From Cymbomonas tetramitiformis (Eukaryota > Chlorophyta > Pyramimonadophyceae > Pyramimonadales > Pyramimonadaceae), in contig LGRX02025774.1 of assembly GCA_001247695.2 (NCBI GenBank), forward strand, positions 1 to 64,000: a stretch of DNA of 64,000 nucleotides, in the 5' to 3' direction. The notes beneath the pieces are model-generated. The model was not told the origin of the DNA and did not search any database. It saw nothing but the letters and a program-made list of their open reading frames with translations. Position numbers and translations under genes: made by a program. Positions within the stretch are counted from its first letter, which is position 1. Every line of letters starts with the position of its first letter. Below are positions 30,979-64,000 of this stretch, piece after piece.

Positions 30979-31107
30979 TTGCTATTTAGTTTTGCTATTG
31001 TTTACTACTTGACAGTACACTTCAAAATAAGTGCATCTCACAAGCATTTGTTGCTGACTTGTTTGCCACAAGCATCCGTTCTTGACTTGTTTCCCATGCA
31101 TGCACAG
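30979..31107. other. A/T-rich spacer
   Basis: About 130 bp between the dioxygenase-like gene and the satellite. CAAGCATTTGTTGCTGACTTG and CAAGCATCCGTTCTTGACTTG form an imperfect 36-bp direct repeat. Nothing coding is seen. Confidence 0.5.
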
Positions 31108-31595: not shown

Positions 31596-31910
31596 GGAAC
31601 AGCGAGGCGACGATGCACCCCAACGGGCAAAAAAATCGTTTTTTACTGACAATAATAATTTTATTTGTAAATTATGTAGTATTGTGTGCGAGGGTGGACA
31701 TATTTTTTGAAAAATCATGCAGGGAAAATATCGGAGAAGCCGAACGAGCCCAGTGGGGGCCGACACAGCGCGCGACCCGACCTTCCCACCCGTCGCCTTC
31801 CTGTCTTAGTTCTATCAGACGGGAAACTAACTACAAACCCTCTTCCCCTTCCGCAGGACAACTCTCCTTTTACCCGTACTCTCCTCTTTCAGCCTTCTAC
31901 GCAGGTGAAG

Positions 31911-39407: not shown

Positions 39408-40153
39408 GATGGGTCGCGACTGGACCCAGAGGAAGAAGGGGGGTTACATAGAGTAGGCGCGGCCTACTGGGACCCCAGAGGGGATGAAAACCCCAGAACC
39501 TGGAGGGGCACGTGGTCGACGGGTGGACACCTCACAATCAACAGGGCGGAACTCCTGGCGATCCACGCGGCACTCAGGGCCAGGGAACGCACAACACCAG
39601 GTGAGATAGCAATCTGCACGGACAGCCTCTGCAGTATGTACCAAATCCTCAACATGTTGTCCAGACCCCACACGATGGAGTGCCATAGACACAGGGATTT
39701 GCTTGAGGATATACTCTCCCTGGTCGAACGGCATAACAGCCAGGGAACGAAGGTCTCACTCAGGAAAGTCAAAAGCCACACAGGGGTGAAAGGCAACGAC
39801 AAGGCAGATGAGGCGGCCAAACAGGCAGCAGAAAACTTGGAGGGAACCACCCAAATTGAACCGTGGGACAACAGGACCATGTACACGCTCGTGGCCAATG
39901 CCCGAGATGGTGAATCGATGAGGCCCCTGCAAGGGGAGGGGGCGGTGGAAAGGTATGTGGCAGAAAGGATTGCACCTAAAGCGACACAGCACAGGTCAGT
40001 AAAAAAATGGCTACAGCCCCCGAACAGCCCGTGGGAAGAATGGGGAACACCCGGCAAGGGAAATCGGGAAGGAGCTCTCTCAGTAAAGGGCTCTATAACG
40101 GAGAACCCCACGCCCGACGCCCCAGGTCCAGCCCAAGGCCCCGACCGGGGCCA
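39408..40153 (+). pseudogene. ORF2 RNase H segment after the stop
   Basis: It continues in the same frame as 35310-39407. RNase H residues read on: NRAELLAIHAAL, CTDSLCSMYQIL and KSHTGVKGNDKADEAA (about 39540-39830). Near 40153 an extra A (CCAAACA versus CCAACA in copy A) shifts the frame by one. The rest of ORF2 is open in the next frame. Confidence 0.8.
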
Positions 40154-40161
40154 AACAGGAC

Positions 40162-41562: not shown

Positions 41563-41660
41563 TTGTGCATGTGACTAGGGGCAGGCGTAACAGCTGTGCA
41601 CCTTCAAATATCACGCTTCCGGTAGGAAGAGTCACATTTTTTTATTTTTTTATTTTTCTT
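41563..41660 (+). other. LINE 3' UTR and T-rich tail
   Basis: About 65 bp of 3' UTR conserved with 3944-4096, then a tail of T runs broken by A. Copy A has T runs broken by C. No poly(A) tail or AATAAA was noted. Confidence 0.8.
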
Positions 41661-42022: not shown

Positions 42023-42883
42023 GTGACCAAGGACGAGGCAGCGTGGCTCGACACTGAGCTCAATGCCACGTTTGGAGGACATCCTGACTTCAAGGAGGAG
42101 CACTGGGAGGAAATGCGAGCTGTTCTTCGCAGATACAAGAGCACTTTCGCCAACAGCCCTCACGACCTCACAGGCTACAAGGGCAAGGCGGAGCACAACA
42201 CGTTCTCCATCCCTTTTGTAGACGAGTCCAAGGCTGCTTACCAGAGACCCAGGAAGTACAGCCCGGGCGAACAGGAGATCATTGACATCCACTGCAAGGA
42301 ATTGCTGGAGTACGGCTTCATAGAGCCTGCAGCCAAGCATTGCAGACATGCGAGCAACGTCGTCGTGGCTGGCAAGAAGGATCACGAGACTGGCCTGTGG
42401 ACCCAAACGCGCTTCTGCGTGGATCTCAGGGGCGTCAATCGACACTCCCTCAAGGACAACACTCTGCCACATCGACCAGAGGAGCTCTACCAGAAGGTTG
42501 CGAAGGCCAAGTTCAAGACCACGCTGGATGCCACCAAAGCCTTCCATCAGATTCCCATGGCTACGGAAGAGGACAGGAGCAAGACGGCGTTCTGGTGGAA
42601 GAACCAGTTGTACCAGTACACCTCGATGCCCTTTGGGGCTGCTGGAGCAACATCTGCGTTTGTGAGAATCATGGACTACGAGTTACGTCACCTGCAGCAT
42701 TGCACGGTGGCATACGTCGATGACGTAGTGGTCTACACTGACTCCACGCCTGAGCAACATCTGAAGGACGTCGAGGACGTGTTGCGCACGTTGGGGGACG
42801 CTGGCATAAGACTGCACGCAGGCAAGAGCACCTTTGGTGAGCAGCTACGGTGGACTTTCTGGCGGTTACCGCATTGGGCATAA
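42023..42883 (+). pseudogene. Gypsy reverse transcriptase (family C)
   Basis: RT fingers and palm: LLEYGFIEPAAKHCRHASNVVVAGKK, TRFCVDLRGVN, LDATKAFHQIPM, the SMPFGAAGATSAF primer-grip region and catalytic YVDD (about 42713-42724). The frame runs out near 42855 where GYRIGH is found in another frame. Ty3/gypsy assignment rests on the later integrase position. No protease precedes it; the element is truncated at the left. Confidence 0.85.
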
Positions 42884-45848: not shown

Positions 45849-48091
45849 CTCAGTGTGAGACTTGCCAGCGCGTGAAGACCCACTACGCAAGAGAGGAGGC
45901 GTGTTTGTCCCCCCTCGAGATCGTGTCGTTCATGTATCGTTGGTCGCTGGACTTGGCATGGCCTTCGAGGAGGGAGACCAAGGCTGGCAACAACAGGGTG
46001 CTCATCATGACCGAGCACTACACCAGATTCATAGTCTGTGTGCCTATTCCCAACAAGGAGGCAAGGACCATCGCGGCGGCATTTCGCAGTCATGTCCTGG
46101 CTGTGTTCGGTGCGCCAGCAGAGTGCTTGGTGGATGGAGGCAAGGAGTTCGAGGGTGAGTTCGAGCAGCTATGCAGAGACTGTCTGATAGACAGACGAGT
46201 CACCTCGCCAGACTCTCCAGAAGGCAACGGGCTCACCGAGCGAGTGGTGCGTACAATGAAGTTTTGCTTCAAAAAGATCGCCTTGGAGAAGGGCCTCGAT
46301 TATGAGTGGGATGAACAGCTCTGGCCGCTCGTGCTGAGCTACAATGCAGCACGCCAAGAGTCCACAGGAGTGGCGCCGTTCACCTTGCTGTTTGCCCAAG
46401 AAGCAGTGGTGCCGCCAGATTTGAAGCAGGCGCCCAGCATGGATTTCAGTCCAGAGGTCAAAGATGACAAGGACGCCCGAGTCAAGGACCTCCTCCTGAG
46501 AGCACAGGTAGTGAGGCGACTGATGGTGCACGCCGGCTGCAGCCTGGAGGTTGCACAGCATCGTGACACTTTACATTATGAAGGAAGAAGGGGTGGGGGC
46601 CATGAGCCTAAGCCACACCAATTTAAAGTGGGGGACTTCGTCTACATCAGACAGAAACCTCGCAGCGGCATGGAAGTCGCGACTAAGTCCGCCATTCTGA
46701 AGCTGGTCAAGATACAGCGAGATGGTGTTGTGGTGCTTGAGGACGCCACCAAGTTAAGGGAAAAGAGCACTGTGCAGAGCATCGCGCCATGTCACCTGCA
46801 GGTGAAGGACCAGTATGACTGCAGTGCAGCCGTGCCCAGCAGACACCTTGCATGTGAAGTGTGCAGGAAGACTGATGGGGAAGCAGAGATGTTGTTGTGC
46901 GACGCGTGCAACGAGGGGTACCATTTGTGGTGTCTTACCCCAGCACTGGATGAAGTACCAGAAGGCGAGTGGCTATGTCCTAGGTGCTCAGGCACGAGGA
47001 TGCAAGCTGCTAGCGCTGAGGTACAGACCCAGGAAACCAAGAGCTCTTGTGTCCTGGAGGACAGATTGGGGATGAAGGGGCAGCAATTGAATGAGAAGCT
47101 GTCCTCAGACATGCGCCTGCTGCCAGCAGATGTGGGTCCCCGTCGTGTGGTGAAGGGAGATAGATTTCAGCCACGGCATGCTATCTCATCAAGGGAGATG
47201 CTACTGGAGGAGAAGGACATGTTCCTCTACATGCCAGACCAGATTGATTGGGGTAGACAGGACAAGCTCTCCGAGGCTGTTCAGATCTTCATGCCAAGGC
47301 ACTGGAATGAGGGACATCGTACGGTGCTGAGCAAGAAGTACCGGGAACAGAAAGCAATGGCAAGGCAACTGAGGGATGCACCTCTGGTGCCTGCCTTGGC
47401 TGAAGAAGAAGTTGAGAAGCGAGGAGAATTGAGACATATGACCAAGGCTCAGGTGCGCGAAGCTAGCGCACTGCAGTGGGGGCTTGAGCTGGTCATCACG
47501 GTGCCCTCCGAGGTGAGGCGCTTGGCGACAGAGGTGGACTGGAAGTCCATCGATGGCGTGTGGGACCCATGGGCAGGTACTGGGGTCATCAGTGAGGTGA
47601 TGGTGGAGCAATGGCCGCAATTGAGATTTATGAATAATGACTGGAATTCTCAGCTGGGTTGGTCTGAGGCGCATGACGCACTTCAGCCAGGTAACTATCG
47701 CATATGGAAGGAGAAGTATGGTGTCTGTGATGCCGTGGTGACTTCACCCTGGTTTGCAGCGCTGGATATCGCGTTTCCATTGGCAGTTATGGCCAGTCGT
47801 GTGGTGGCATGTGTCCATGTTCCTTCTTACTATTTGACAGACATGACCGAGAGCAGAGCTGCGTACTTCAGACGATTGAGTCAGTCTGGACGCTTGCATG
47901 TGATTGGACATCTAGAACATGGACCTATTGGCCGCAGATGTATGTGGGTTTTGGTGTTCAAGAACCCGCTGGTCAGAGCCAGGATGTTACAGGATGGAGA
48001 AGGTGAAGGCATTGATATGTTCACTTTCAGTTTGGGCAAGTTCGTGGCGGATGGTGATACGACCCAGTATGCTGAACAAGCCCATATTTGA
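45764..48091 (+). CDS. Gypsy integrase, PHD finger and SPWF-type methyltransferase
   Basis: It starts inside the integrase zinc finger (CETCQRVKTHY). The DDE core has SLDLAWPS, LVDGGKEFEGEF and PEGNGLTERVV, followed by FKVGDFVYIRQ. The PHD finger (residues about 364-409) has the C4HC3 order, CEVCRKTDGEAEMLLCDACNEGYHLWC and then CPRC, and would be expected to read histone H3 tails. The C-terminal domain has motif I DPWAGTGVISEV, an NND acidic position and TSPWF (about 47741-47755) in place of a [DNS]PP[YFW] motif. This fits a class-I methyltransferase of the N6-adenine type. The stop at 48089-48091 precedes the polypurine tract. Confidence 0.78.
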   Translation: MGNKTYAASSVAALLVGRLEEGDVEAVVTQCETCQRVKTHYAREEACLSPLEIVSFMYRWSLDLAWPSRRETKAGNNRVLIMTEHYTRFIVCVPIPNKEARTIAAAFRSHVLAVFGAPAECLVDGGKEFEGEFEQLCRDCLIDRRVTSPDSPEGNGLTERVVRTMKFCFKKIALEKGLDYEWDEQLWPLVLSYNAARQESTGVAPFTLLFAQEAVVPPDLKQAPSMDFSPEVKDDKDARVKDLLLRAQVVRRLMVHAGCSLEVAQHRDTLHYEGRRGGGHEPKPHQFKVGDFVYIRQKPRSGMEVATKSAILKLVKIQRDGVVVLEDATKLREKSTVQSIAPCHLQVKDQYDCSAAVPSRHLACEVCRKTDGEAEMLLCDACNEGYHLWCLTPALDEVPEGEWLCPRCSGTRMQAASAEVQTQETKSSCVLEDRLGMKGQQLNEKLSSDMRLLPADVGPRRVVKGDRFQPRHAISSREMLLEEKDMFLYMPDQIDWGRQDKLSEAVQIFMPRHWNEGHRTVLSKKYREQKAMARQLRDAPLVPALAEEEVEKRGELRHMTKAQVREASALQWGLELVITVPSEVRRLATEVDWKSIDGVWDPWAGTGVISEVMVEQWPQLRFMNNDWNSQLGWSEAHDALQPGNYRIWKEKYGVCDAVVTSPWFAALDIAFPLAVMASRVVACVHVPSYYLTDMTESRAAYFRRLSQSGRLHVIGHLEHGPIGRRCMWVLVFKNPLVRARMLQDGEGEGIDMFTFSLGKFVADGDTTQYAEQAHI

Positions 48092-48872: not shown

Positions 48873-49091
48873 TGTTGGAAATCTGGGCTTGCATATAAGA
48901 GCTTAGCGTTCGATCTCAGAATATCAGAATTTCAAAAAATTTGTAGCTCTATGATCTTGTGTTGTGTTAAGACTGCCTGAATAATTGCCGACACAAGTGA
49001 ATGTTAAAGACGAGTTTATGTCTATCCGCGAATGTTAAGATTGCTCGGACCCGATAGTATTCGTACCATCATGTGCACGCGTTTGCGACAG
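48873..49091 (+). repeat. Second, truncated family C LTR
   Basis: 219 bp nearly identical to 48129-48347, immediately following the first LTR in the same orientation. It stops at GCGACAG, where gag sequence of another family begins. It may derive from a tandem LTR junction, or the 219-bp segment may be a repeat flanking unrelated DNA. Confidence 0.75.
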
Positions 49092-51298
49092 AGTCAGTGG
49101 TGCACGGTGGTGGCGACCCTGATTCAGAGCGCAGAGTCCCCAGCCCAAGGAACTCGCCCCCAGGTCCCCCTGATGACCCACCTCCAGACCCTTCTGGTGA
49201 CCCCGACCGAGGACCAGAGCCCTCTTACCCTCAGTACCCAGAGGTTCGGGCCCTCTTCATCACTCACGACGGTGGGTCACTGTGGGTACATCAGTCAGCG
49301 GGGGTGCGAGGCGCGGCGACTGTCTCCTTACCACGGGACGAACGCCGCAGAGCTGGAGTACAGGGCGACACCATTCTCTTCACGATTATGCATCTGTTGG
49401 GAGCTCCGCTAACAGCTTACGCACGCATGGGAGGTCGTCTACATCACACACGGCTACCCCTCACCAACCCTCGCGTGGAGACCTGGGTACTCATGGTCGA
49501 CCGCGAGATCATGGACATGGCCATGGGAGACCCAGCTGCAGCTAATGTGCGATCTACGAGTATGGGACAGCCGGTGTGGGAGTGGATACCTGCTACTGCG
49601 CGGGAGTCTGAGATGCTGCACTTCGACCAGGACGGTCTCGCCGCGTGGTCTGAGGTTAGCAACTCCGACTGGTACCGAAACATGAGCGTGGTGGCCGCGC
49701 AACCACCTACCCCCATGCCCTTCCACACGCCCCTCCCGCTCCCCGCTCCATCACCAGCACCTGCACCACCGCCCATCCCTGGGCCGCCAACCTCCGCATT
49801 ACCGCCTGCCTCAACCGCAGTCCCCACGAATCCCGCGCCTGCACTCCCACCCGCGCATGCTCCAGGACCACCACCTTCAGCCCGCTTTCCCCACTCCGCC
49901 ACCGCGAACCCCATCCTTTCTCCCAGCGCCGCCCCCTTTGTGCCAGGTGTCATCCGACTGCCGCAGGGCACTAATCTGCGGGCGTCTTCGGACGAGGTCC
50001 GCCAGGAGCACAAGGTCAAGGAGATGGTGCTGAAGCTGGTCAAGGGCGTGACTAAGTTCCCCCGCTCCGCGGCCGACACCAAATCGGCCGACAAGGATGG
50101 CCTACTGGCGCAGCTGGAGCATTACTCCAACCTGGTGCGGAAGACTTTCCAGGAGGCCATCGTGGTCGAAGCGCTGACCACCCCCAGCTGTACGCCGTCT
50201 GTATCGGAGTACCAGGCGAGTGTGTCGAGCCTCCTCTGGAGCTTCAAGGAGTACACTCTGCAAGACCAGCAGAAGAGGTTCTTGGAGCGGGCGGCGGGGA
50301 TCTTCGGGTCCGACCAGGCCTGGCACCAGCGCTACGTGGAGTTGGACGTGTTCTTCAGCGACCTGGCGGTGTGCTCCCTGACACAGGGCTACCTGGAGAA
50401 CACGCACGGCGAGGCCATCGCACTGAAGCAGGCGCCGAATGAGACCGCGGCGGAGTACTTTTCGCGGTTGGAGACCCGCATGGCCTTGGTCAATTTCCTG
50501 GCTGGCAGGGTCCCCAACTGCGTGGAGATGTCCAACCTGTCCATGCTCTCCACGTACCGCCGAGGGCTGAAGTATGCGCCCAAGGTGATGCGGCGCCTCA
50601 GGGCCATCCACCTGGACGTCTCCAGGCCAGAGGAGTGGGAAAGGAAGGCTGCCTCTGACGACATCCCGGGCACCCACAACGCCCTGTTGAAGATACGGGA
50701 GGTCGCCGAGGAGGTGGAGAATGGCATCGACACAGAGGCAGCTCAGAGGCGCACTGCAGACCGCCCTCCCCGAACTGTCTCCTTCGCAAACCCGCCTCCT
50801 CGTTCCCCCTTCTTCAGGCGCACCCCCTCCTCGAACCGTCCAGCGCTCGCCGTGCTGGAGAACGGGCCCACTACTGCCGCTGCCGCGGCGGTCACCCCGT
50901 TGCCACCACCGCCTGGTCTCTCCCGCCCTGACGCACCGAAGGTTCGCCGGTGTTTCGCCTGCGGCTCCGCGGAGCATATCGTCCGCAACTGTACGGACGA
51001 GGCCAAGCTGAAGGAATGGAGAGCCAACGCTCCTGCCCGACTGGCAAACTCTCCTGGATTCGTGGCCGCTGTCGTCTGGGCCATCGAACAGCAGGAGGAC
51101 CTCTCCCGGGTGGACGGCGTTCCAGAGGAGTTCTCCGAGGAGGTTTTGGCGCTCGCCAGCTGTGAGGACGAGCAGAGCTACCAGACTCTGGCGGCACTCG
51201 CTGGCATCGAACTTGTGGAGGGCGACGGCCTCCCCCGGTTGAGGATGACGAATGACTGGCCGGCGACCAGTCCCCGACCCTGCCCTTCGGGGAAGTGA
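49073..51298 (+). CDS. Gag polyprotein of gypsy family A
   Basis: The open frame runs out of the truncated LTR; the true start is lost or lies downstream of 49092. It has a Pro/Ala-rich N-terminal half and then a helical capsid-like region (about residues 330-560) with YFSRLETRMALV and LSMLSTYRRGLKYAP. The CCHC knuckle CFACGSAEHIVRNC lies at 50949-50990. The C-terminal tail DGVPEEFSEEVLALASCEDEQ is exactly the part retained in the copy at 55840. The product packages element RNA. TGA at 51296-51298 separates it from Pol, which is in another frame. Confidence 0.8.
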   Translation: MHAFATESVVHGGGDPDSERRVPSPRNSPPGPPDDPPPDPSGDPDRGPEPSYPQYPEVRALFITHDGGSLWVHQSAGVRGAATVSLPRDERRRAGVQGDTILFTIMHLLGAPLTAYARMGGRLHHTRLPLTNPRVETWVLMVDREIMDMAMGDPAAANVRSTSMGQPVWEWIPATARESEMLHFDQDGLAAWSEVSNSDWYRNMSVVAAQPPTPMPFHTPLPLPAPSPAPAPPPIPGPPTSALPPASTAVPTNPAPALPPAHAPGPPPSARFPHSATANPILSPSAAPFVPGVIRLPQGTNLRASSDEVRQEHKVKEMVLKLVKGVTKFPRSAADTKSADKDGLLAQLEHYSNLVRKTFQEAIVVEALTTPSCTPSVSEYQASVSSLLWSFKEYTLQDQQKRFLERAAGIFGSDQAWHQRYVELDVFFSDLAVCSLTQGYLENTHGEAIALKQAPNETAAEYFSRLETRMALVNFLAGRVPNCVEMSNLSMLSTYRRGLKYAPKVMRRLRAIHLDVSRPEEWERKAASDDIPGTHNALLKIREVAEEVENGIDTEAAQRRTADRPPRTVSFANPPPRSPFFRRTPSSNRPALAVLENGPTTAAAAAVTPLPPPPGLSRPDAPKVRRCFACGSAEHIVRNCTDEAKLKEWRANAPARLANSPGFVAAVVWAIEQQEDLSRVDGVPEEFSEEVLALASCEDEQSYQTLAALAGIELVEGDGLPRLRMTNDWPATSPRPCPSGK

Positions 51299-51444
51299 GG
51301 TCACACTCTGGCGATCAGACCCTCTCCACCCAGGAAAAGCGGTCAGAACCAGAAGTACCCCAGTCCCTGACCCTGCCCTTCGGGGAAGTGAGGTCACACC
51401 CTGGTGATCAGACCCTCTCCGCCCTGGAGAAGCGGTCAGAACCA
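51270..51444 (+). repeat. Tandem duplication at the gag-pol junction
   Basis: Two copies of about 86 bp (GACCCTGCCCTTCGGGGAAGTGAGGTCACAC...) span the gag stop. The copy at 55133 has only one. CCTTCGGGG could form a small stem-loop and may influence expression of Pol. Confidence 0.7.
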
Positions 51445-51479
51445 ATGGAACCCCGACGCGCACGAGGACGTAGAGATCC

Positions 51480-53676
51480 TTGGGGCCATCGACCTCATCC
51501 CAAGAGCGTGGCCTTCACCTCTGGAACCGCTTGCGACACACCTACCGCTCAGCTGGTGCCCCGCCACTACCGAGGGATGACTTGACCAGTCACCCCCTTG
51601 CAGAAAGTGGCCCTTTCGACGAACCGTCTCTACCTCTCGATGATGGCCCTGCTTACACACAGGCAAGGATCGAGGGTCGGAGGGGGCGGCGAGTTCCCCG
51701 ACACAGGCCCCCCATCATGGGCAGCAACCTTGGAGGGCCCCGTGATCTTCGCCCCCAACCGCGTGCTGTTCTACCACTACCCAATTACCAGTCCAATCTC
51801 GCGGACCCGCGGAAGAGGCTAACTGCGTGGCATTGGAAGAGGGAACTATACTCCCTCCCTCTCGAGGTCGCCATGCAAAGGGTTCGCAGAGCTCTGCGTA
51901 AATCCCCAGAAGCTGCTAAAGCCCTGGTGAACAAGATGTGGGAGCGCACCCGCAGCCGCATACGCTCTGGGAGCCGATCGCCAGAGGAGCACGTGAACCG
52001 CGCCAACCAGCTGGCGGAGAGAGTACGCATCGCCCGCGAACCTCAAGATCGCAGGGAGGGTCATCAGCGCATAGCATTGTGGCACCTCCTCTCGCACGAC
52101 GGCCGCCAACAAGCCCTCGAGCCCCCTAGCGTCAGCTCCTCCGACCTCTACGCAGCTTGGAGGGAGTTGTCGCCCGCCGAGCAGCTGGAGGCGATCGCCA
52201 CCTCGAGTCCGGACTCTTCCCCTGGCAACAGGCTGTGGGAAAAGGAGGGCGTGCGAAGAGCAGCAGCGAGGTCTTCGGCATCTCTCTGCACCCTGGACAC
52301 TGAAGTGGGCACGATACCCGGGACAGCGGGAGACGTGGGCCTACCTGGCGCCTGGTGCAGTCTACACGCGGTGCACCAGTACAAGATGAGGAAGCTGGGT
52401 CCCAGCCCTTTAGGAGTATCCCCTCCGTCGCCCCCGCTGGTCGAACCCACACCGGAGACGGCATCTTCGCTCCATGCTGACGCGCCGACTACCCCGGGAG
52501 GAAACCTTGAAGATCCACCCGACTGCGCACAATCTTCGCCTGAAGTGGCAGAGGAGACCTCTACTTCCAGTTCGCTTTGCTTCACCCAGCAGATGACCAC
52601 CGTCAGGACGCACGAAGCAGAGGATGCGCTGCCCCGTCTGGACAGCCACCCCATCGCTGAAGACCCCGAGGTGATGGAAGAGGAGTCCTCGGTCGATTCG
52701 CTCTGCTACACCCAGCAGATGGCGGTGGCTGGGACCCATGAGGCGAGAGCTGAAGGGAATCACCGGAGCTCCCACCAACTCGCCCTCGACTTCCCCACCA
52801 GCAGCCCCCAGCATGACGAGGACCCCCTCAGCCACAGCGAGACCCCCCACAGCAGTCTCATCAACAGCGCCACTACCCATGTGAGCCCCACAGTGAGCGG
52901 TACTACCCACGTGAGCCCCACAGCAAGTGGCACCACCCATGTGAGCCCTACCACCAGCGGCACCACTCATGTGAGCCCTACCACCAGCGACACCACTCAT
53001 GTCAGCCCCACCCCGAGCGAATGCATTTCAACGGGCGCCCTGCTGACAACGAGCGCAGACAATCTCATCAGCCACCCGACCGAAGATATCGACTTGCTGG
53101 ATGAGGAGTTCTACGCCGCGTGTAGGCAAACGGCGAAGGAGTGTCGCGACGCCTCGGACAACCTTCTCCCCAACCTCAAGTGCAAAAGCATACGCACGGA
53201 TGGGGGAGTTCAGTGGAAGACCGACATTGAGGGTACTCTCGCAGCGGCGCATGATGAAGAAGGACCGCTGCTACTGGTGTTCTATGCAACCCTCAGAGGG
53301 CACACGGTCAAGGTGCTGATTGACTCGGGAGCTTCTGACAACTTCATCTCGGAGCAGAGTGCTAAACGATGTGGCCTCACGACACGAGCTGGCTCCGAGA
53401 TGCGAGTCACCTTAGCGGATGGATCTGTAAAGATCACAGGCGCCACCGCGTACGCCAAGTTTAACACGCACACCACCACGGGCACCTACACGGAGAATGC
53501 CCTTGCCCTTCGAATTCTACCTCTGGGCATACAAGTGGACGTTATCCTCGGGGGAAGGTGGCTGCGCAGTCACTCCCCCGTAACCCTGGGCTATGAGGGA
53601 AACGGTTCTGTGTCCTTCCTCAGGAAGTCCCGCGGTGGCAAGATTGGAGATCGCGTCACCATCACAGGTTGCTCGC
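51480..53676 (+). pseudogene. Pol N-terminal region and protease, truncated (family A)
   Basis: Homologous to the first about 700 codons of the intact Pol at 56221: a basic N-terminal region (RRALRKSPEAAK, RSRIRSGSRSPEEHVNRAN), a Ser/Pro-rich linker with decapeptide THVSPTTSGT repeats (52868-53010), then retropepsin with LIDSGASDNFIS (about 53320-53350) and VILGGRWLRSH. Near 53677, after ITGCSP, the homology stops and the frame continues into unrelated sequence. RT and everything downstream are absent. The first codon at 51480 is not an ATG; Pol probably depends on frameshifting or another recoding event. Confidence 0.8.
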
Positions 53677-54146
53677 CTCAGTCCTCACAGCCTCACGCAC
53701 AACCTCCGTCCGTCCACGCAGCACAGACATCGATGGGACCTTCACGCAAGACACGCAGCAAAGACCAGAAGAAACTGTATTCCCGGCAGACGACCCTCCC
53801 TCAGTCTGAAAACACCCAGCTGGGGGAGCTCATGCGCCAGTTTGCAGCCCAGCAGCAAGAAATGCAGGGTCTTCGTCAGCAGCTGGCAGCAGGGCTTGCT
53901 GGTGCTGCTGCTGTGCCTGCGCAGCACCCGGCCGTCAAGGTGGAAGCGGGTGCTACAGGCAGCACGCCTGGCGATGCGGGGGGGGTCTTCCACACGACAA
54001 AGGAGGCCCCCCAGTATCTCGTGAAGTCATTGCAGCGGTCGACAAATTTAGTTTGCGGAAATAATTTAAAAAGTGGAGTATGGGCCCCTGGATGCACCAT
54101 CTCCACGCTGGACGAAGAGACAAGAGAGCCTGGACGAAGCCATTGA
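53677..54146 (+). CDS. Unidentified coding segment with Gln-rich coiled coil
   Basis: Fused in frame to the truncated protease but not part of it. Contains LGELMRQFAAQQQEMQGLRQQLAAGLAGAAAV, a likely coiled coil, then an Ala/Gly segment and FHTTKEAPQYLVKSLQRS. Near 54120 the reading passes to the next frame (ESLDEAIEAIKTATPGF), which suggests a one-base break. No family recognised. Confidence 0.45.
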
Positions 54147-55132: not shown

Positions 55133-55830
55133 TGTGCCCGGAGGCACAGCGTGAGCCGATATGCCTATGCGTCCGTATGTGTGTCATCGGGGGTAATCTG
55201 GGATTGGCACGATGACAGTGAAATTGGGCTTGAAATCACGATGAGAATGAATACCAGATGTCCGGGGTATGACAGTATGACAATATGACACTATGACAGT
55301 ATGACAGTATGACACTATAGTAGTATGACAGTACTGTGGGGGGTGTCATCGTGGAACTCAGTCAGACCCTCGAAGAATGGTCAGATTCGCATCGGGGTTG
55401 AAAAGACAATGAAATCGAATATCAGATATTAAGGTTATGACAGTATGACAGTATGACGCTATGACAGTATGACAGTATGACAGTACAGTACAGTAGTATG
55501 ACAGTACTGTGGGGCAGTCATCGTGTCAGCCTGTCGGCATAACATCTGAATCGAGAATGACGAATCGGAATTAGAAATGAGATCGGATCGGGAACTGAAC
55601 GTTGAGCCGAAGTGTGACATCGGCTCTCGAGTGGTTGACCCTGCAACCTGAGTGACGAGTGAATAAGTAGAGCACTTGAGAAGTGTTTAGCCTTCAGAAC
55701 TCGGAACCGAATTATCGTTTGTACCTCAATCTGGCCCTGATCCAGTATATTATAAAAATCCGAATTGTGTACCTTTGCACGTTCAATCAAAAACATATCT
55801 CCGAGCATCTGTCGTCGTGCCCCTGGCACA
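55133..55830 (+). repeat. 5' LTR of family A element (698 bp)
   Basis: TGTGCCCGGAGG...CCCTGGCACA. Carries two blocks of ATGACAGT tandem repeats (55267-55330, 55437-55507) in the presumed U3 region, and a TATTATAAAAA box at about 55747-55757 that is a good promoter candidate, with GTACCTTTGCACG downstream. Confidence 0.93.
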
Positions 55831-55832
55831 TT

Positions 55833-55840
55833 TGGTATCA
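55833..55840 (+). promoter_or_regulatory. Primer-binding site, initiator tRNA-Met type
   Basis: TGGTATCA two bases after the LTR end matches the 3' end of initiator tRNA-Met. The match stops after eight bases, where the gag deletion begins. Confidence 0.7.
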
Positions 55841-55986: not shown

Positions 55987-56220
55987 CTGGCCGGCGGCCA
56001 GCCCCAGACCCTGCCCTTCGAGGAAGTGAGGTCTTGCCCTGATGATCAGACCCTCTCCGCCCTGGAGAAGCGGTCAGAACCAGTGGAACCCCGACGCGCC
56101 CGAGGACGCAGAGACCCTTGGGGCCAACGTCCCCATCCCAAGAGCGTGGCCTTCACCTCTGGTACCCGCTTGTGACGCACCTACCGCTCAGCTGGTGCCC
56201 CATCGCCGCCGAGGGATGAC
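55987..56220 (+). other. Leader between gag remnant and Pol
   Basis: Corresponds to 51299-51560 of the other copy but with one instead of two 86-bp units. A TGA at 56173-56175 closes the Pol frame upstream, so Pol starts after it. Confidence 0.7.
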
Positions 56221-59200
56221 TTGTCTAGCCACCCTCTTGCAGGAAGCACCCCCTTCGATGAGCCGTCACTACCTCTTGATGACGGCCCTGCTTATACACA
56301 AGCGAGGATCGAGGGTCGGAGGGGACGGCGAGTCCCCCGGCACAGACCCCCCATTATGGGCAGCAACCGCGGAGAGCCCCGCGATCTTCGCCCCCGACCG
56401 CGTGTTGTCCTACCACTGCCCATCTATCAGTCCAACCTCGCAGACCCACGGAAAAGGCTAACTGCGTGGCACTGGAAGAGAGATCTGTACTCCCTCCCCC
56501 TCGAGGTCGCCATGCAAAAGGTCCGCAGAGCTCTGCGCAAATCCCCAGAGGCTGCCAAGGACCTGGTGGATAAGATGTCGGAGCGCGCCCGCAGCCGCAT
56601 ACACTCTGGGAGTCGATCGCCAAAGGAGCGCGTGAACCGCGCCAACCAGCTGGCAGAGAGGATACGCATTGCCCGCGAACCTCAAGATCGCAAGGAGGGC
56701 CATCAGCGCATAGCATTGTGGCACCTCCTCTCACACGACGGTCGCCAGCAAGTCCCCGAACCCTCTAACGCCAGCTCCCACGACCTCTACGCGGCTTGGA
56801 GAGAGCTGTCGCCCGCCGAGCAGCAAAAGGCAATCGCCACTTCGAGCCCAGACTCTTCTCCAGGTAGCAGGCTGTGGGAAAAGGAGGGCGCACGAAGAGC
56901 AGCAGCGAGATCTTCGACATCCCTCTGCACCCTGGACACTGAAGTGGGCACGATACCTGGGACAGCGGGAGATGTGGGTCTACCTGGCGCCTGGTGCAGT
57001 CTGCACGCAGTACACCAGTACAAGATGAGGAAGCTGGGTCCCAGCCCCTTGGGAGCATCCCCTCCATCATCCTCGCTGGCCGAGCCCACAACAGAGACTA
57101 CATCTTCGCACCATGATAACGCGCCGGCCACTCCGGGAGGAAACCCCGAAGGTTCATCCTATTGCTCAGAGGCGGAGGAGACCTCCGCACCCAGTTCGCT
57201 TTGCTTCACCCAGCAGATGACCACCGTCAGAACGCATGAAGCGGACGAAGCGCCGCCCTGTCTCGACAGCCACCCCATCGCTGAAGACCCTGAGGTGATG
57301 GAAGAGGAGTCCTCGGTCAATTCGCTCTGCTTCACCCAGCAGATGGCAGCAGCTGGGACCCCTGAGCCGAGAACTGACCACCAGAGCTCCCACCAACTCG
57401 CCCACAACTCCCCTGCTGGCAGCCCTCAGCATGACGAGGATCCTCTCACCCATGGCAGTCTCATCAATAGTGTCGCTACCCATGTGAGCCCCACAACAAG
57501 CGGCACTACCCACGTGAGCCCCACAGTAAGCGGCACTACCCATGTGAGCCCCACCACCAGTGGCACTACTCATGTGAGCCCTACTACCAGTGACACCACC
57601 CATGTGAGCCCTACCACCAGCGACACCACTCATGTCAGCCCCACCTCGAGCGAATGCACCTCAGCGGGCACCCTGCTGACGGCGAGTGTAGACAACCTCG
57701 TCAGTCATCCGACTGAAGATGTTGATTTGCTGGATGAGGAGTTCTACGCCGCGTGTAGGCAAACGTTGGAAGAATGCCGCGAGGCCTCGGACAACCTCCT
57801 CCCCAACCTCAAGTGCAAAAGCATACGCACAGATGGGGGAGTTCAGTGGAAGACCGACATCGAGGGTACCCTCGCAGCGGCACATGACGAAGAAGGACCG
57901 CTACTGCTGGTATTCTATGCAACCCTCAGAGGGCACACGGTCAAGGTGCTGATCGACTCGGGGGCCTCTGACAACTTCATCTCGGAGCAGAGCGCTAAGC
58001 GATGTGGCCTCACGACACGAGCCGGCTCCGAGATGCGAGTCACCCTGGCGGATGGATCTGTGAAGATCACTGGCGCCACCGCGTACGCCAAGTTTAACAC
58101 GCACACCACCACGGGCACCTATACGGAGAACGCCCTTGCCCTCCGGATCCTACCACTGGGCATACAGGTGGATGTTATCCTTGGCGGGAGGTGGCTGCGC
58201 AGTCACTCTCCTGTCACTCTGGGCTATGAAGGGAATGGCTCCGTCTCCTTCCTCAGGAAGTCCCGCAGTGGTAAGATTGGGGATCGCGTCACCATCACAG
58301 GCTGTTCTCCTGGGAAAGCATCTGGGGACAGGTCTCCGAAGGGCACGGCCTGCGCGGGATTGATGGATGAGGTGTTCCTAACCCCTGCCCAGCTGAAGAA
58401 GTACCTGGTGTACGCGGAGACGCAGAAGCTACGCGGTAATGACGACCCGGAGATACAACCCGCCTGGCTCATGGTGGCCGAGAAGTCCCCCGATGATACT
58501 GCTTCTGCCTTTGCAGCCACGGCTATCGACTCTGAGAACGCCGAACCCGCTGCGGATACTGAAGATGCAGAAGTGAGCCCTGAGTGGACCCTCAAGTTTC
58601 AGGATTTCTGGGGTGAGGAGTACAAAAAGGAGATGACGACTGCCCTACCGAACATCGATGGACTCAGACATGACCCCCAAGATGAAGCCAACATTAACCT
58701 GGACCCTGAGCTGAGCAAGAAGGGGCCGCCCTGCCAGCGCATCTACAAGAAGTCTGCAGAGGAACTCCGCCAACTTCGAGAACGCGTGGAGACTCTGATG
58801 TCCAAGGGCTACATCCGACCCTCTTCCAGCCCTTATGCAGCTCCCTGTCTGATGGTCCCCAAACCGGGGAACCCCAAGGAGCTGCGACTGGTGATCGATT
58901 ACCGGCTCCTCAACCGCCAGACAGTTAAGGACAAGTATCCTCTCCCAGACATCCAGATGATGTTCGACGAGATGCAGGGTGCGAAGTTCTTCTCTTCGTT
59001 CGACGCGGTGGATGGCTTCTGGCAAGTACCGATGGCACCAGGAGATGTCGAGAAGACCGCCTTCACCACCCAGATGGGGTCATATGAGTGGTTGGTCATG
59101 CCGCAGGGGCTGCAGAATTCACCATCTCAGTACCAGCGACGGATGCAGCGGGCCTTGGGCCATCTCCCATTTGTCCGGATCTTCATCGATGATGTGGTCG

Positions 59201-62200
59201 TCTTCAGCAACACCGCTGCAGAGCACTACGAGCACGTCAAGCAACTGCTCCTGACATGCAGGGAGAAGGGCGTCTTCCTCAAGAGGTCCAAGTGCCAACT
59301 GTTGAAGAAATCCTTGCGGTTCCTTGGCCACTGTATCTCCGCAGATGGCTGCAGACCCCAACACGACAAGGTGGCTGCAGTGAGGGACTGGCCCGAGCTG
59401 GAAACGGTTACCCACGTCAGGCAGTTCTTGGGCCTGGCGGGGTATTACCGCAGGTTCATCCACTGCTTCTCCGAGATCGCTCAGCCCCTCACCCGGTTGA
59501 CCAAGTCGGACGTACCCTGGGAGTGGGGTCCCATGCAGCAGTGGGCCTTCGAGGAGCTGAAGAAGGCCCTCACCTCAGCGCCAGTGCTCGCCTTGCCCAA
59601 CATTAAGGGTGCCGCAGACGGCACGGCACCTTTCGTGGTGCAGACGGATGCTAGCGGCATCGCTCTTGGGGGAGTACTGATGCAAGACAATGGAGATGGT
59701 CTTGGACTGCGCGTGATAGCATACGAGAGCCGCCAGTTCTCAGCCGCCGAGCAGAATTATCACACCGGCGAGCGTGAGCTAGGTGCTCTACACCACTGTA
59801 CCACCGTTACCTGGCGGCATTACCTCATCTTCACCAACTTCCGCATCCAGGGTGATCACCGCCCCCTTGAATGGCTGATGGAACCTGGCAGGGAGCTTAG
59901 CCGCAGACAGGCACGCTGGTACATGGATCTGGTGGAGGTGGGAGTCCCGAGAATGGAGTACATCAAAGGAGCGCTGCTGCTGGTACCGGACGCCCTGTCC
60001 AGAAGACCCGACTTCAAAGACAAGGACGTGCGTGAGGGGTTGAAGGAGGCAGGGGTGATCGACCCCACCTCAGATCTACCGAAAGACCCCCTGGCAACGC
60101 TGGAGTCTGAATACTTCTCCAGCTCACCACCCGCAGCTCATCCCCACTGGGCCCAGACTGTTGACTGTTGGCTCTCAGCAGTGGAGACCCTCTCCGTGGC
60201 GGAACAGGCCATGGACATGGGGGAGACCATCGCTCTCGTTAACCCGAAGCTCTATAAGGGAATGAAGGAGGATCACCTCGACTTCGACATGCCTGACTGG
60301 CCTGCAGCTGATAGCGCGAAGCCGGTAGAAGCTCCACACAAACCCCCTGATAGAGCTCCACCCCAGATAAGGATAACGAGGAGTATGTCACGCGCTGGGA
60401 AGGCCTCTACGACCCCAACGCCTCCGCAGTTGGCGTCACCAAAGACGCGAACGCCTACGTCACGAGCTGACGCATCGGAGGCGCCCACTGAGAAGGTGCC
60501 AACGAGCTCACCAACCCCGCAGCAGGCGCCCCAACAGTCAACTCCATCCCCGGTCCTTCACCCACAGAAACGGCAGGCTCCCCCAGAGGACTCACAGAAT
60601 TGGCGTGTCCGAGCAGAGTACTCCTCGAAGTACGCCGAGAAATTTGGACCCTTCGATGTGGACGCCTGTTGTGACTTTGGCGGCCGCAACAGACAGGCGG
60701 ATAGATTCTGGACAGACTGCCTTTCAGAGAAATGGAGGGGCCTTCGGGTTTGGTGTAACCCTCCATACAACTCCAAGTGCATTACTGTGGAGGCGATCTT
60801 GAACAAGTATATCGCAGAATGGAAGGCAGACCCAGAGAACACCTCAGCAGTATTCGTTCTACCAGATCACCAGTCCAAGCTCCCCGCGTGGCGCAAACTT
60901 TTCAGAAAGGCCAATATGCAGATTGTGGAGGTCATCCCTACTCACGATGACAAGGGCGAGCCCAACCAGTTCTTCGAGAACCCAGATGGGAGAGCCTTCG
61001 ACCTTCGCTGGCCTGTTCTGATAGTGCACGCCCCTCCCGCCAAACCACAACCAGCACGCGTGAGGCATCCGCGAACAGCCCCCGCTGTGATAAGGACAGG
61101 TGAGGCGGCAGACTTCAGAGACGCAGCCTCCCAGCAGTCGGACTCAAAGTTCCTGCGCGCGTTGAAAGCGGAGTACACCCGAGAGGGGACACTTCGTTCA
61201 CTAAGAGAGAAGGTGAAGGCGGCACCACACCAATGCCTACAAGACTTCAGACTAGTGGGTGAAGTGGTTTGGAGGACCGCAGCAGGGAGATATCAGTTGG
61301 TGCTGGGGGAGGACTCTCCACTTCGAGAAGTAGTGATTCGCCATGCTCATGAGTCATTGTCCTCAGGTCACACTGGGCGAGACAAGACTCTGGAGAGGGT
61401 GCTGCGACGCTTCTATTGGCGTGGTGCCGCGGAAGATGTAGGCACCTGGGTTGCATCCTGCGCAGTGTGCCAATCAGTGAGGCCGCGGGGAACTTACCCG
61501 GATGGGTTGCTAAACCCTCACAGCATCCCGAACAGGCCATGGCAGGATGTCGCGGTGGACTTCGTCACCGGCCTGCCGGTATCAGAGAGAGGCAATGACG
61601 CTTTCGTGGCCTTCACCTGCAAGCTGACGAAGATGGTCCACGTTGTGCCGATGAACTTCGGCGACAGCTCCGCAGCTGTGGTGGCCAGAATCTACTTTGA
61701 CTCGGTGTGGCGCTTACATGGCGCGCCTATGAAGATTGTCTCTGATCGTGACCCACGGTTTCAAGATGCTTTCTGGCAGGAACTCATGAGGCTGATGGGT
61801 GTGAAAGTGGCTCGTACCACGCCGTACAACCCTCGGTCTGACGGCCAGGCGGAACACAGCAACAGGGTTATTGAGGACATGCTCAGGTCCTTTGTAGACG
61901 CCAATGTGGAGGACTGGGATCTGTTCACCACTAACGTGGAGTTCGCGATCAATGACTCCAGGAGTGAATCTACTGGCTTCACGCCATTTGAACTGGTGTT
62001 CGGGTTCTCGCCGCTGTCGCAGTTGGACCTTTTCCTGGAGGCCGCACAGTCCACCGCTGGACGACGAACTGGGGGAGTAGGCACCGCACACGAAGTGGCT
62101 GTGAAATTTTCGTCGCAGCTGCGGGACGCCAGACAGCGGTTAGAGCTGGCTCAACAGCGACAGCGCGAACAGTTTGATCGCAGACACGGGCAGCGGGAGT

Positions 62201-63597
62201 ATGCTGTTGGAGATCTGGTCTGGATAGAGGCGAAACACCTTACGGAGAAGGTGATGGATCGCTCCATCTGTAGGAAACTGACCAAGCGCTGGCATGGACC
62301 AGTTCCTGTGACCGAACGCTTCTTCAGCGATGTACAGATGACCATGCCAGAGGCCGACAGAGGAGCTCCAGTAGCCTACCGCCTACGCCTCCCTCCTCAC
62401 TGGCGGATTCACGACGTGTTCGCTCAACATCGCCTCAAACCGTACACCAGCGGTCAAGATGCTTTTGCCGCACGCGATCACCTAGCAGTACCTGAAGAGG
62501 TGGTAGTGGACGGTCAGAAGGAAGCACACGTTGAGCGCATTCTTGCACGTCGAGTGCGGTCTGTTCGAGGAAAGGAGGTGGAAGAGTGGAAGGTTCGCTG
62601 GACTGGCTACTCCAAAGCTCACGACCAATGGAGGACGCGTGACAAACTTGAACGCGGAAGTCCACTTCAACAACTTCGTGAATTCGAGCACGCGAGACTG
62701 CACATGGAAGCGCAAGTCCGCGACGAAGCCACTCGGCGACGCGAGCAGCGTGGCCGTCACTCCGCTCAAGCCGGAATGACACTGGCCCACCTCATCACTA
62801 ATCCCTGCGATGAACTGGACCAGCTCGAACAGATGGAAGATGATATCCCCCTGCCGTGGGAACGCCAAGAGCGCGTGGAAGATGGGTCGTTGGCACTGGT
62901 GACAGAGCTGCTGGCGATACAGACAAAAACAACCCGCACGCCCAGGATTCTCGTACTTTTCAGCGGTACTGGCTCAGTAGAGAGGGAATTCCTAAATTGC
63001 TTCCCCTCCGCTTCAGTAGTGACCCTCGACTCCGGACATATCTGGCAACCCACTCATGTGTGTGACATCCTGCAATGGGACTACAAACAATACCCGCCTG
63101 GATTCTTCGATGTTGTTTGGGCAAGTCCCCCCTGCAGGCAGTACAGTCAAGCGCGCACCACTGGTGGACCCCCTGACCTTCCCCAGGCTGACAAAATCGT
63201 ACGACGAGCATTGCAGATCATTGACTACTTGGAGCCAAAACATTGGTTCATGGAAAACCCCAGAGGTCGATTCCCTAACGCGCTACGGCTTCGCCCTATG
63301 ATGCGCCAGCTTCCCCCACCGCTGGTGTGTACCTACTGCATGTACGGTACGCAGTACATGAAACCCACCTGCATATGGACGAACTCAGCACCACCCTCGC
63401 CCCTGCTACGCTGTACTACTTCAACACCGTGTGCGTGCAGATGGGCAACCGGTGCTCATCCAGAGACTGCTCAGCTTGGACCTCACCCGCAGCAGACTGG
63501 AGCAGGTCGATCTGCGAGTGTATATCCCGTGCCAGCACTTCTGCTACGACAACTTTTCCGACATTTACGTCTCCGCGACACTGAAGACCCGCTTTAG
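56221..63597 (+). CDS. Pol polyprotein: protease, RT, RNase H, N6-adenine methyltransferase, integrase, chromodomain, C5 methyltransferase
   Basis: An intact 2458-codon frame; the TTG at 56221 marks only the earliest possible start, and in-frame ATGs follow. Protease is at D579-S-G-A. RT has LVIDYRLLN, FSSFDAVDGFWQ and FIDD (990-991). RNase H has QTDASG (D1143). A phage Dam-like N6-adenine methyltransferase spans about 1460-1610, with FDVDACCDFGG from D1479 and catalytic NPPY 1513-1516. The integrase has an HHCC finger from about H1708 and D1780, D1842, E1878, giving the canonical D-x35-E. A chromodomain lies at about 2098-2153 (VERILARRV, WKVRWTGYSKAHDQW). The C5 methyltransferase spans about 2242-2400: LFSGTGSV, SPPC2305, MENP (E2345) and YGTQYMKPTCIWTN. 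All catalytic residues expected for each domain are present, so this copy could be active if Gag is supplied. Confidence 0.92.
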   Translation: MSSHPLAGSTPFDEPSLPLDDGPAYTQARIEGRRGRRVPRHRPPIMGSNRGEPRDLRPRPRVVLPLPIYQSNLADPRKRLTAWHWKRDLYSLPLEVAMQKVRRALRKSPEAAKDLVDKMSERARSRIHSGSRSPKERVNRANQLAERIRIAREPQDRKEGHQRIALWHLLSHDGRQQVPEPSNASSHDLYAAWRELSPAEQQKAIATSSPDSSPGSRLWEKEGARRAAARSSTSLCTLDTEVGTIPGTAGDVGLPGAWCSLHAVHQYKMRKLGPSPLGASPPSSSLAEPTTETTSSHHDNAPATPGGNPEGSSYCSEAEETSAPSSLCFTQQMTTVRTHEADEAPPCLDSHPIAEDPEVMEEESSVNSLCFTQQMAAAGTPEPRTDHQSSHQLAHNSPAGSPQHDEDPLTHGSLINSVATHVSPTTSGTTHVSPTVSGTTHVSPTTSGTTHVSPTTSDTTHVSPTTSDTTHVSPTSSECTSAGTLLTASVDNLVSHPTEDVDLLDEEFYAACRQTLEECREASDNLLPNLKCKSIRTDGGVQWKTDIEGTLAAAHDEEGPLLLVFYATLRGHTVKVLIDSGASDNFISEQSAKRCGLTTRAGSEMRVTLADGSVKITGATAYAKFNTHTTTGTYTENALALRILPLGIQVDVILGGRWLRSHSPVTLGYEGNGSVSFLRKSRSGKIGDRVTITGCSPGKASGDRSPKGTACAGLMDEVFLTPAQLKKYLVYAETQKLRGNDDPEIQPAWLMVAEKSPDDTASAFAATAIDSENAEPAADTEDAEVSPEWTLKFQDFWGEEYKKEMTTALPNIDGLRHDPQDEANINLDPELSKKGPPCQRIYKKSAEELRQLRERVETLMSKGYIRPSSSPYAAPCLMVPKPGNPKELRLVIDYRLLNRQTVKDKYPLPDIQMMFDEMQGAKFFSSFDAVDGFWQVPMAPGDVEKTAFTTQMGSYEWLVMPQGLQNSPSQYQRRMQRALGHLPFVRIFIDDVVVFSNTAAEHYEHVKQLLLTCREKGVFLKRSKCQLLKKSLRFLGHCISADGCRPQHDKVAAVRDWPELETVTHVRQFLGLAGYYRRFIHCFSEIAQPLTRLTKSDVPWEWGPMQQWAFEELKKALTSAPVLALPNIKGAADGTAPFVVQTDASGIALGGVLMQDNGDGLGLRVIAYESRQFSAAEQNYHTGERELGALHHCTTVTWRHYLIFTNFRIQGDHRPLEWLMEPGRELSRRQARWYMDLVEVGVPRMEYIKGALLLVPDALSRRPDFKDKDVREGLKEAGVIDPTSDLPKDPLATLESEYFSSSPPAAHPHWAQTVDCWLSAVETLSVAEQAMDMGETIALVNPKLYKGMKEDHLDFDMPDWPAADSAKPVEAPHKPPDRAPPQIRITRSMSRAGKASTTPTPPQLASPKTRTPTSRADASEAPTEKVPTSSPTPQQAPQQSTPSPVLHPQKRQAPPEDSQNWRVRAEYSSKYAEKFGPFDVDACCDFGGRNRQADRFWTDCLSEKWRGLRVWCNPPYNSKCITVEAILNKYIAEWKADPENTSAVFVLPDHQSKLPAWRKLFRKANMQIVEVIPTHDDKGEPNQFFENPDGRAFDLRWPVLIVHAPPAKPQPARVRHPRTAPAVIRTGEAADFRDAASQQSDSKFLRALKAEYTREGTLRSLREKVKAAPHQCLQDFRLVGEVVWRTAAGRYQLVLGEDSPLREVVIRHAHESLSSGHTGRDKTLERVLRRFYWRGAAEDVGTWVASCAVCQSVRPRGTYPDGLLNPHSIPNRPWQDVAVDFVTGLPVSERGNDAFVAFTCKLTKMVHVVPMNFGDSSAAVVARIYFDSVWRLHGAPMKIVSDRDPRFQDAFWQELMRLMGVKVARTTPYNPRSDGQAEHSNRVIEDMLRSFVDANVEDWDLFTTNVEFAINDSRSESTGFTPFELVFGFSPLSQLDLFLEAAQSTAGRRTGGVGTAHEVAVKFSSQLRDARQRLELAQQRQREQFDRRHGQREYAVGDLVWIEAKHLTEKVMDRSICRKLTKRWHGPVPVTERFFSDVQMTMPEADRGAPVAYRLRLPPHWRIHDVFAQHRLKPYTSGQDAFAARDHLAVPEEVVVDGQKEAHVERILARRVRSVRGKEVEEWKVRWTGYSKAHDQWRTRDKLERGSPLQQLREFEHARLHMEAQVRDEATRRREQRGRHSAQAGMTLAHLITNPCDELDQLEQMEDDIPLPWERQERVEDGSLALVTELLAIQTKTTRTPRILVLFSGTGSVEREFLNCFPSASVVTLDSGHIWQPTHVCDILQWDYKQYPPGFFDVVWASPPCRQYSQARTTGGPPDLPQADKIVRRALQIIDYLEPKHWFMENPRGRFPNALRLRPMMRQLPPPLVCTYCMYGTQYMKPTCIWTNSAPPSPLLRCTTSTPCACRWATGAHPETAQLGPHPQQTGAGRSASVYPVPALLLRQLFRHLRLRDTEDPL
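57472..57650 (+). repeat. 30-bp coding minisatellite in Pol
   Basis: Six tandem decapeptide units of the THVSPTTSGT/SDT type. The homologous region at 52868-53010 has five. The unit is Thr/Ser/Pro-rich, as in mucin-like linkers, and copy number varies between elements. Confidence 0.88.
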
Positions 63598-63770: not shown

Positions 63771-63784
63771 TAAGGGGGGAGAGT
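63771..63784 (+). promoter_or_regulatory. Polypurine tract (family A)
   Basis: AAGGGGGGAGAG immediately before the LTR start TGTGCC; the expected plus-strand primer. Confidence 0.75.
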
Positions 63785-64000
63785 TGTGCCCGGAGGCACA
63801 GCGTGAGCCGATATGCCTATGCGTCCGTATGTGTGTCATCGGGGGTAATCTGGGATTGGCACGATGACAGTGAAATTGGGCTTGAAATCACGATGAGAAT
63901 GAATACCAGATGTCCGGGGTATGACAGTATGACACTATGACACTATGACAGTATGACAGTATGACACTATAGTAGTATGACAGTACTGTGGGGGGTGTCA
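63785..64000 (+). repeat. 3' LTR of family A element, partial
   Basis: The first 216 bp of the LTR before the window ends. Matches 55133-55348 with a single visible substitution, in a repeat unit (GACAATATGACA versus GACACTATGACA). Confidence 0.92.

Follow-up and report, generated by a model that had tools for sequence, protein, structure and literature searches.

We analysed a 64,000-nucleotide stretch of the genome of the prasinophyte alga Cymbomonas tetramitiformis (contig LGRX02025774.1, positions 1 to 64,000; hereafter the window) and focused on one long terminal repeat (LTR) retrotransposon in it, the focal element. In its Pol polyprotein, a predicted Dam-like (N6-adenine) methyltransferase domain separates RNase H from integrase, and a chromodomain is followed by a small predicted C5-cytosine (C5) methyltransferase domain. 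On balance, we consider it probable that this is a gypsy Pol with two phage-type methyltransferases that mark the element's own new DNA.

The first-pass annotation of the window, made from the letters alone, had described a single uninterrupted frame of 2458 codons with two methyltransferase domains. Both points held: the open reading frame (ORF) has zero internal stops (Table 1), and the motifs, the placement in Pfam and PHROGs families and confident fold models put both domains where the annotation had located them. The Pfam matches follow the order protease, RVT_1, RNase H, Dam, integrase zinc domain, integrase core, SH3, chromodomain and DNA_methylase.

Two methyltransferase domains of predicted phage type

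The Dam-like domain presents DVDACCD and NPPY (residues 1479-1516) and is flanked by RNase H, which runs to residue 1238, and by the integrase zinc domain, which begins at 1699. The Pfam profile PF05869 (Dam) matched residues 1454-1525 above its cut-off (E-value 6.6e-7; 29.6 bits against 28.1), through positions 5-78 of 169, the first half of the profile. The domain also matched the PHROGs family phrog_111, annotated as 'DNA methyltransferase' (E 8.9e-12), and reached 22.1 bits with NCBIfam TIGR01712, the phage N6-adenine methyltransferase equivalog, far under the curated cut-off of 97.05. Structure prediction returned a confident methyltransferase-fold model, with a predicted local distance difference test score (pLDDT) of 94.6. 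Beyond retroelements, the relatives of this domain are phage enzymes, at 20-29% identity over the alignment and 25-49% in local segments. In a tree of 74 sequences, the 27 retroelement Dams formed one group, with none of the 47 viral ones inside; the viral set had been chosen by motif pattern (45 of 80 loci entered, 44 passed the length filter and 42 were used, plus 5 of 7 other loci). Trees were built with FastTree and midpoint rooted.

The C5 domain presents GTGSV, PPC and ENP at residues 2249-2347, C-terminal of the chromodomain (2103-2149). Of the two Pfam profiles that the first-pass annotation had proposed for checking its domains, PF05869 thus passed, whereas PF00145 (DNA_methylase), on residues 2276-2348, stayed slightly under the cut-off (E 5.5e-4; 19.9 bits against 22), although phrog_757, 'DNA methyltransferase', matched the C5 domain at E 4.2e-18. 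NCBIfam profiles were far under their curated cut-offs. The PPC and ENP motifs are present, and the confident methyltransferase-fold model shows a C5 fold. This fold was nearest to DNMT3, yet profile matching picked out 18 PDB sequences, of which 16 are DNMT1 and 2 DNMT2-type, and the single C5 sequence retrieved no solved relatives at E 0.1.

A homologue search found 677 proteins, with a median length of 215 residues among the 120 listed, a short median partly due to the filter, which admits lengths of 0.55-1.75 times the query. Scanning viral contigs with the single C5 sequence gave five stretches and zero relatives; with the C5 alignment, there were at least 589 relatives among the 600 stretches listed, 80 of which were kept, and local identity was 30-41% among the matches listed. 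Besides, in the C5 alignment (95 sequences) two cysteines and a histidine (domain positions 163, 169 and 178) are at least 90% conserved between the last motifs and form a possible metal site.

Because the Dam relatives are phage enzymes and the C5 kin are small and found in viral contigs, these comparisons point to phages or other prokaryotes, and not to host DNMTs, as the origin of both captured domains, without singling out a donor. The likeness to the C5 captures of Symbiodinium and Klebsormidium drawn by the first-pass annotation holds in that a C5 enzyme sits in a retrotransposon Pol; the focal C5, however, appears to belong to a phage and environmental mini-C5 family and is not evidently a host-type DNMT capture. 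The annotation had also named what would speak against it, namely domains outside any methyltransferase family or widespread loss of their motifs. Neither was seen: both domains are placed in methyltransferase families, and the catalytic motifs are mostly kept in the sequences examined. The Dam-like domain is predicted to place N6-methyladenine (6mA), and the C5 domain 5-methylcytosine (5mC), on DNA.

Recurrence and constraint of the layout

A query with the Dam region gave 74 candidates, from which 22 polyproteins were kept, 14 of them bearing Cymbomonas tetramitiformis names. The closest of these 14, P0002 (a Cymbomonas gene model), is 100% identical to the focal copy in reverse transcriptase (RT) and integrase. 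With the focal copy included, Dam was matched in 23 of 23 sequences and C5, partly incomplete, in 17 of 23; ten cover at least 85% of the C5 domain, and P0008, P0009, P0020 and P0021 stop before its position. NPP[YF] is kept in 21 of the 23 Dam rows, or 12 of 14 clusters when clustered at 90%. For the C5 motifs, the counts are 17 of 17 for GTGS, 15 for SPPC, 14 for ENP and 10 for the final VY.(V/I)P, and some of the missing motifs belong to gene models that are truncated or have odd splicing. P0022 represents a separate lineage, a gypsy that has a PHD finger and in which Dam precedes RT. As a side observation, the environmental protein P0023, of another lineage again, is a copia polyprotein in which Dam follows gag and precedes integrase (PF05869, 45.2 bits), which places Dam in Ty1/copia too.

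A far relative, L088, presents RNase H, Dam (27.4 bits, just under the cut-off), integrase, chromodomain and C5 in the same order within one ORF (13-3975 of its contig), with the catalytic motifs kept. Its identity to the focal copy is 51% in RNase H, 37% in Dam, 40% in integrase and 44% in C5. The contig had been binned as a Verrucomicrobiaceae metagenome-assembled genome, but we rejected L088 as a bacterial relative: the ORF is a retroelement polyprotein, and the contig is probably a mis-binned eukaryotic one. Since L088 keeps the domain order at 37-51% identity, the dual-methyltransferase layout is, judged by sequence divergence, old.

An assembly chimera or a chance resemblance, for which the PF00145 score under the cut-off could be invoked, has next to no probability in view of these relatives. 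P0003 is a separate protein from a metagenome and represents a cluster of 31 members; it shows the complete layout at 97-100% identity to the focal copy by domain, and divergent relatives share this layout. A chimera or one-off was rejected, as the layout is present in relatives including L088.

In the C5 tree (221 sequences, with no Dnmt3 sequence among them), 18 of the 19 retroelement-linked names were present (P0007 was dropped by length) and all fell in a clade of 22 with support 0.85; for five of the 19 (P0032, P0033, P0034, P0037 and P0039), which are short proteins, the retroelement origin is assumed. The L088 C5 lies outside this clade of Cymbomonas-type C5s, among environmental proteins, and joins it in the group one step up, which has 41 members (support 0.73). 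Thus, a single capture by all these elements is unsupported, and the tree is compatible with one C5 capture or with several.

The domains also appear constrained. Between L088 and the focal copy, the proportion of differing sites, synonymous and then nonsynonymous, was 0.88 and 0.44 in Dam (139 codons) and 0.91 and 0.37 in C5 (200 codons), compared with 0.82 and 0.42 in integrase (298 codons) and 0.82 and 0.36 in RNase H (121 codons), with zero stops in all four. A diverged relative in the window, element A, gave 0.81 and 0.37 against the focal copy for C5 (209 aligned codons, stop-free) and 0.79 and 0.28 for integrase. These figures, which are long-term averages over old divergences, suggest that synonymous sites are saturated and protein change is restrained, with Dam and C5 about as restrained as integrase in the L088 comparison. 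Moreover, pairwise identities in Dam and C5 correlate with the RT and integrase ones (Mantel r of 0.75-0.95 for n between 9 and 17; no more than 1 in 2000 permutations was as high). Kept in relatives, the layout resembles a device that the element has long maintained for marking its own DNA.

Proposed self-marking and its alternatives

In the mechanism that we propose, the Pol of a chromodomain Ty3/gypsy lineage in a prasinophyte alga would have acquired the Dam-like domain in the gap between RNase H and integrase and the small C5 domain after the chromodomain. Both enzymes would be made and packaged within Pol, near the reverse-transcribed complementary DNA (cDNA) and the integrase. The element's new DNA would then be methylated before or at integration, by the C5 enzyme on cytosine and by the Dam-like one on adenine, and the chromodomain would carry the C5 enzyme to target chromatin. 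A copy marked in this way may escape treatment as foreign or gain a chromatin state favourable to the element.

Several observations weigh against self-marking of DNA. The solved structure nearest to the Dam-like model is an mRNA cap adenosine methyltransferase (PCIF1). The main rival explanation, which we consider unlikely, is an RNA substrate for the Dam-like domain, either the genomic RNA of the element or its cap, which would leave DNA to C5 alone. By sequence, however, the domain falls in phage DNA N6-adenine families (PF05869 and phrog_111), and a Pfam search up to E 1 gave it no PCIF1_WW match. Since no credible sequence-related solved structure was found for it, the PCIF1 match may mean merely the nearest small core.

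The footprints of methylation in the sequence count on the same side. The CpG transition excess was weak, 1.5-fold between the focal copy and its sibling in the window and 0.7-fold in the LTR pair, and GATC and CCGG were without clear depletion at second-order expectation in the window elements. In the gypsy elements, CCGG was counted 61 times, where second-order expectation gives 78.8 (rank 13 of 256). A GATC deficit in a minus-strand element resembling a long interspersed nuclear element (LINE) was discarded because it was gone under second-order expectation (6 seen, 8.0 expected). Of the dual 5mC and 6mA writer and putative chromatin reader that the first-pass annotation had put forward, the layout is the part that is backed by divergent relatives; the weak CpG footprint and a nearest Dam fold that acts on RNA caps speak against the writing of both marks on DNA.

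Relatives bring further points against self-marking. The census, seeded by the Dam region and limited to long proteins, holds no information on the share of relatives without Dam or C5, and the correlations between domains could equally come from shared descent without function. In two environmental proteins, Dam motif IV is replaced (SPPH in P0016, SPPC in P0017) while the C5 motifs are intact, and therefore the predicted Dam activity seems dispensable in some lineages. This loss would suit a reading to which we give little credence, with Dam-like and C5 as passive or decaying cargo, or merely structural parts of Pol; so would their faster divergence, with mean pair identities of 0.62-0.66 for Dam and C5 against 0.73-0.78 for RT and integrase in the same pairs. 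Against decay, the motifs are kept in 12 of the 14 Dam clusters and in L088, and both domains combine saturated synonymous change with moderate nonsynonymous change.

It is also conceivable, but quite unlikely in our judgement, that the enzymes target other DNA, such as host chromatin at insertion sites, rival elements or viruses, in accessory defence or host manipulation. A passage in the literature suggests such a role for transposon methylases generally (PMC6338049), and the C5 domain adjoins the chromodomain. Packaging with Pol, if it occurs as proposed, would favour the element's own cDNA over other DNA.

The focal copy, its neighbours and known systems

The order of protease, RT, RNase H and a DDE integrase, together with two LTRs, marks the element as a Ty3/gypsy LTR retrotransposon, and the chromodomain after the integrase makes it chromovirus-like and a probable member of the chromodomain lineage. 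What the focal copy lacks is gag: its LTR abuts the final gag part directly, and nearly all gag is gone. The sibling (ORF 49073-51298) and P0002 both have an upstream gag with a zinc knuckle; in the sibling ORF, the zf-CCHC match is weak (Pfam E 0.0036, below the cut-off) and the CX2CX4HX4C pattern was read by eye. The gag loss is specific to the focal copy, and the Ty3/gypsy class holds for the family.

The first-pass annotation had seen an intact and recently inserted copy. The insertion does look recent, because 215 of 216 comparable bases are the same between the LTRs. Intactness applies to the Pol ORF and to the protease, RT, RNase H and integrase motifs, all found in the focal Pol, that we take to be catalytic. 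It does not extend further: the pol frame is open from 56176, just after a stop codon (56173-56175), and with this stop and almost no gag the copy is not autonomous. A fully intact autonomous copy was thus rejected; the copy is young by its LTRs yet non-autonomous, and its mobility would depend on gag supplied by another copy.

Table 1. Features of the focal element, in window positions
Feature	Positions	Strand	Observation
5' LTR	55133..55839 (3' edge +/- ~10 bases)	+	direct repeat with 63785-64000
Possible tRNA-Met primer binding site, TGGTATCA	55833..55840	+	read from the sequence; putative, presumed assignment
Terminal gag codons	55841..55986	+	match P0002 from residue 570 and the sibling from 51111
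Stop codon in pol frame, upstream of the long ORF	56173..56175	+	P0003 continues through here
Pol polyprotein ORF	56221..63597	+	2458 codons, zero internal stops
Aspartic protease	57913..58209	+	PF13650 E 2.3e-10 and related models
Reverse transcriptase	58855..59331	+	PF00078 E 1.8e-31
RNase H	59524..59934	+	PF17917 E 8.1e-27, PF17919 E 7.5e-25; ends at residue 1238
Dam-like methyltransferase domain (predicted)	60592..61035	+	PF05869 29.6 bits; phrog_111 E 8.9e-12; model pLDDT 94.6
NPPY of the Dam-like domain	60757-60768	+	residues 1513-1516
Integrase zinc-binding domain	61315..61488	+	PF17921 E 6.1e-17; starts at residue 1699
Integrase core	61534..61833	+	PF00665 E 6.8e-5, 23.5 bits, under cut-off 32.6; D, D, E motifs present
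Chromodomain	62527..62667	+	PF00385 28.0 bits, above cut-off 25.1; residues 2103-2149
Small C5 methyltransferase domain (predicted)	62926..63594	+	
Polypurine tract	63772..63784	+	adjoins 3' LTR; purine-rich, assigned by position
3' LTR	63785..64000	+	incomplete, reaches the window end

Related sequences lie nearby. The sibling fragment (51111-53678) is 86.6-87.2% identical to the focal copy, and a further LTR copy (10778-11450) is 88.7% identical to the focal 5' LTR. Arrays of an 8-base unit of the ATGACAGT type occur within the LTRs (55265-55520). Element A (4359-9623, +) has C5 and a chromodomain, and a deletion took out its RNase H and Dam.

An unrelated gypsy, element C (42023-48091, +), has a Dnmt3A-like C5 that follows RNase H and precedes integrase (PF00145, 32.5 bits; DNMT3A as best PDB match, E 7e-6) and a PHD finger C-terminal of the integrase core. 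At its C-terminus, DPWAGTG...TSPWF is amino-methyltransferase-like by eye only, and profile searches gave no support.

Three LINE-like elements (414-3941, +; 11394-15920, -; 35310-39407, +) carry a PCIF1-homologous domain (Pfam PCIF1_WW; human PCIF1 E 4e-11). Both LINE lineages, mutually 48% identical, have NPEY at the motif, in the place of what we take to be the catalytic NPPF of PCIF1. The literature matches listed had nothing similar on PCIF1 in LINEs or retrotransposons in their titles and abstract openings. The LINE stretches 319-4117 and 37855-41660 reflect a recent insertion or duplication, with 99.2% identity across 3.8 kb. Diverged repeat arrays are shared by positions 1-299 and 4133-4690. 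Finally, a DUF7869 protein lies at 24573-26780 (-), and long ORFs at 27089-35259 (+) had zero Pfam matches at E 0.01.

A proposal for retrotransposon DNMTs is already in print (PMC5890265), and the mechanism suggested for the focal element extends it. The following comparisons concern the portions of the cited papers at hand. C5 enzymes have been published for gypsy, LINE and DIRS elements, and DIRS are also known to carry Dam (PMC5890265, PMC6338049). KnitGypsy-Dnmt3 of Klebsormidium nitens (de Mendoza 2018, PMC5890265) is likewise a gypsy Pol with C5 in the polyprotein, but it has one methyltransferase, of the Dnmt3 clade, whereas the focal Pol combines a phage-type mini-C5, a Dam-like domain and a chromodomain; element C is its closer parallel. 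SymbioLINE-Dnmt and SymbioDIRS-Dnmt3 of Symbiodinium (PMC5890265) share a C5 enzyme in a retrotransposon, but belong to other retroelement orders with host-derived DNMTs, and an adenine-type enzyme goes unmentioned in those portions. DIRS elements with a Dam-like domain in the polyprotein (PMC5890265, PMC6338049) use a tyrosine recombinase, whereas the focal element combines LTRs and a C5 enzyme with a DDE integrase of the rve type. Elsewhere, a DNA transposon of Ectocarpus has a methyltransferase accessory gene (PMC12477816, 2025), and a 2025 DNMT survey mentions DNMT3 in retrotransposons (PMC12344493).

In Cymbomonas itself, Chlamyvir-type chromodomain gypsy elements may be of the same broad lineage (PMC10675990); 'methyl' has 0 occurrences in the main text of that paper. 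Burns 2015 (PMC5741210) reported high-copy scaffolds of this alga with chromodomain, RNase H and cytosine methyltransferase, three at >10,000x coverage. They are possibly fragments of the focal or related families; in the portion at hand, they are not presented as one element and an adenine methyltransferase goes unmentioned. The 2023 Cymbomonas assembly was made with Oxford Nanopore reads.

A Ty3/gypsy Pol with both enzymes was not described among the matches listed, in titles and abstract openings of open-licence literature. The first-pass annotation's undescribed system appears novel in this respect, but not in its parts, since C5 retrotransposons and Dam-bearing DIRS are known. One published sentence mentions the two types of enzyme and the two clades of element, with green algae among the hosts, without saying that one gypsy has Dam or both; in the sources that it cites, a gypsy with Dam may have been sighted earlier.

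A wider claim is more doubtful, although possible: that two-mark (6mA and 5mC) self-marking of cDNA, in the particle or at the target and steered by reader domains, arose on more than one occasion within a single algal genome, in the focal chromodomain lineage with its Dam-like and phage-type C5 domains and in element C with its PHD finger, its Dnmt3-like C5 and a possible further methyltransferase-like domain.

In the conventional view, retrotransposons are targets of DNA methylation. The focal family, apparently old and present in multiple lineages, would itself carry two writers. This opens the questions of why it may pay an element to self-methylate, whether a transposon-borne source could account for 6mA on eukaryotic transposons, and how phage enzymes may enter eukaryotic epigenetics.
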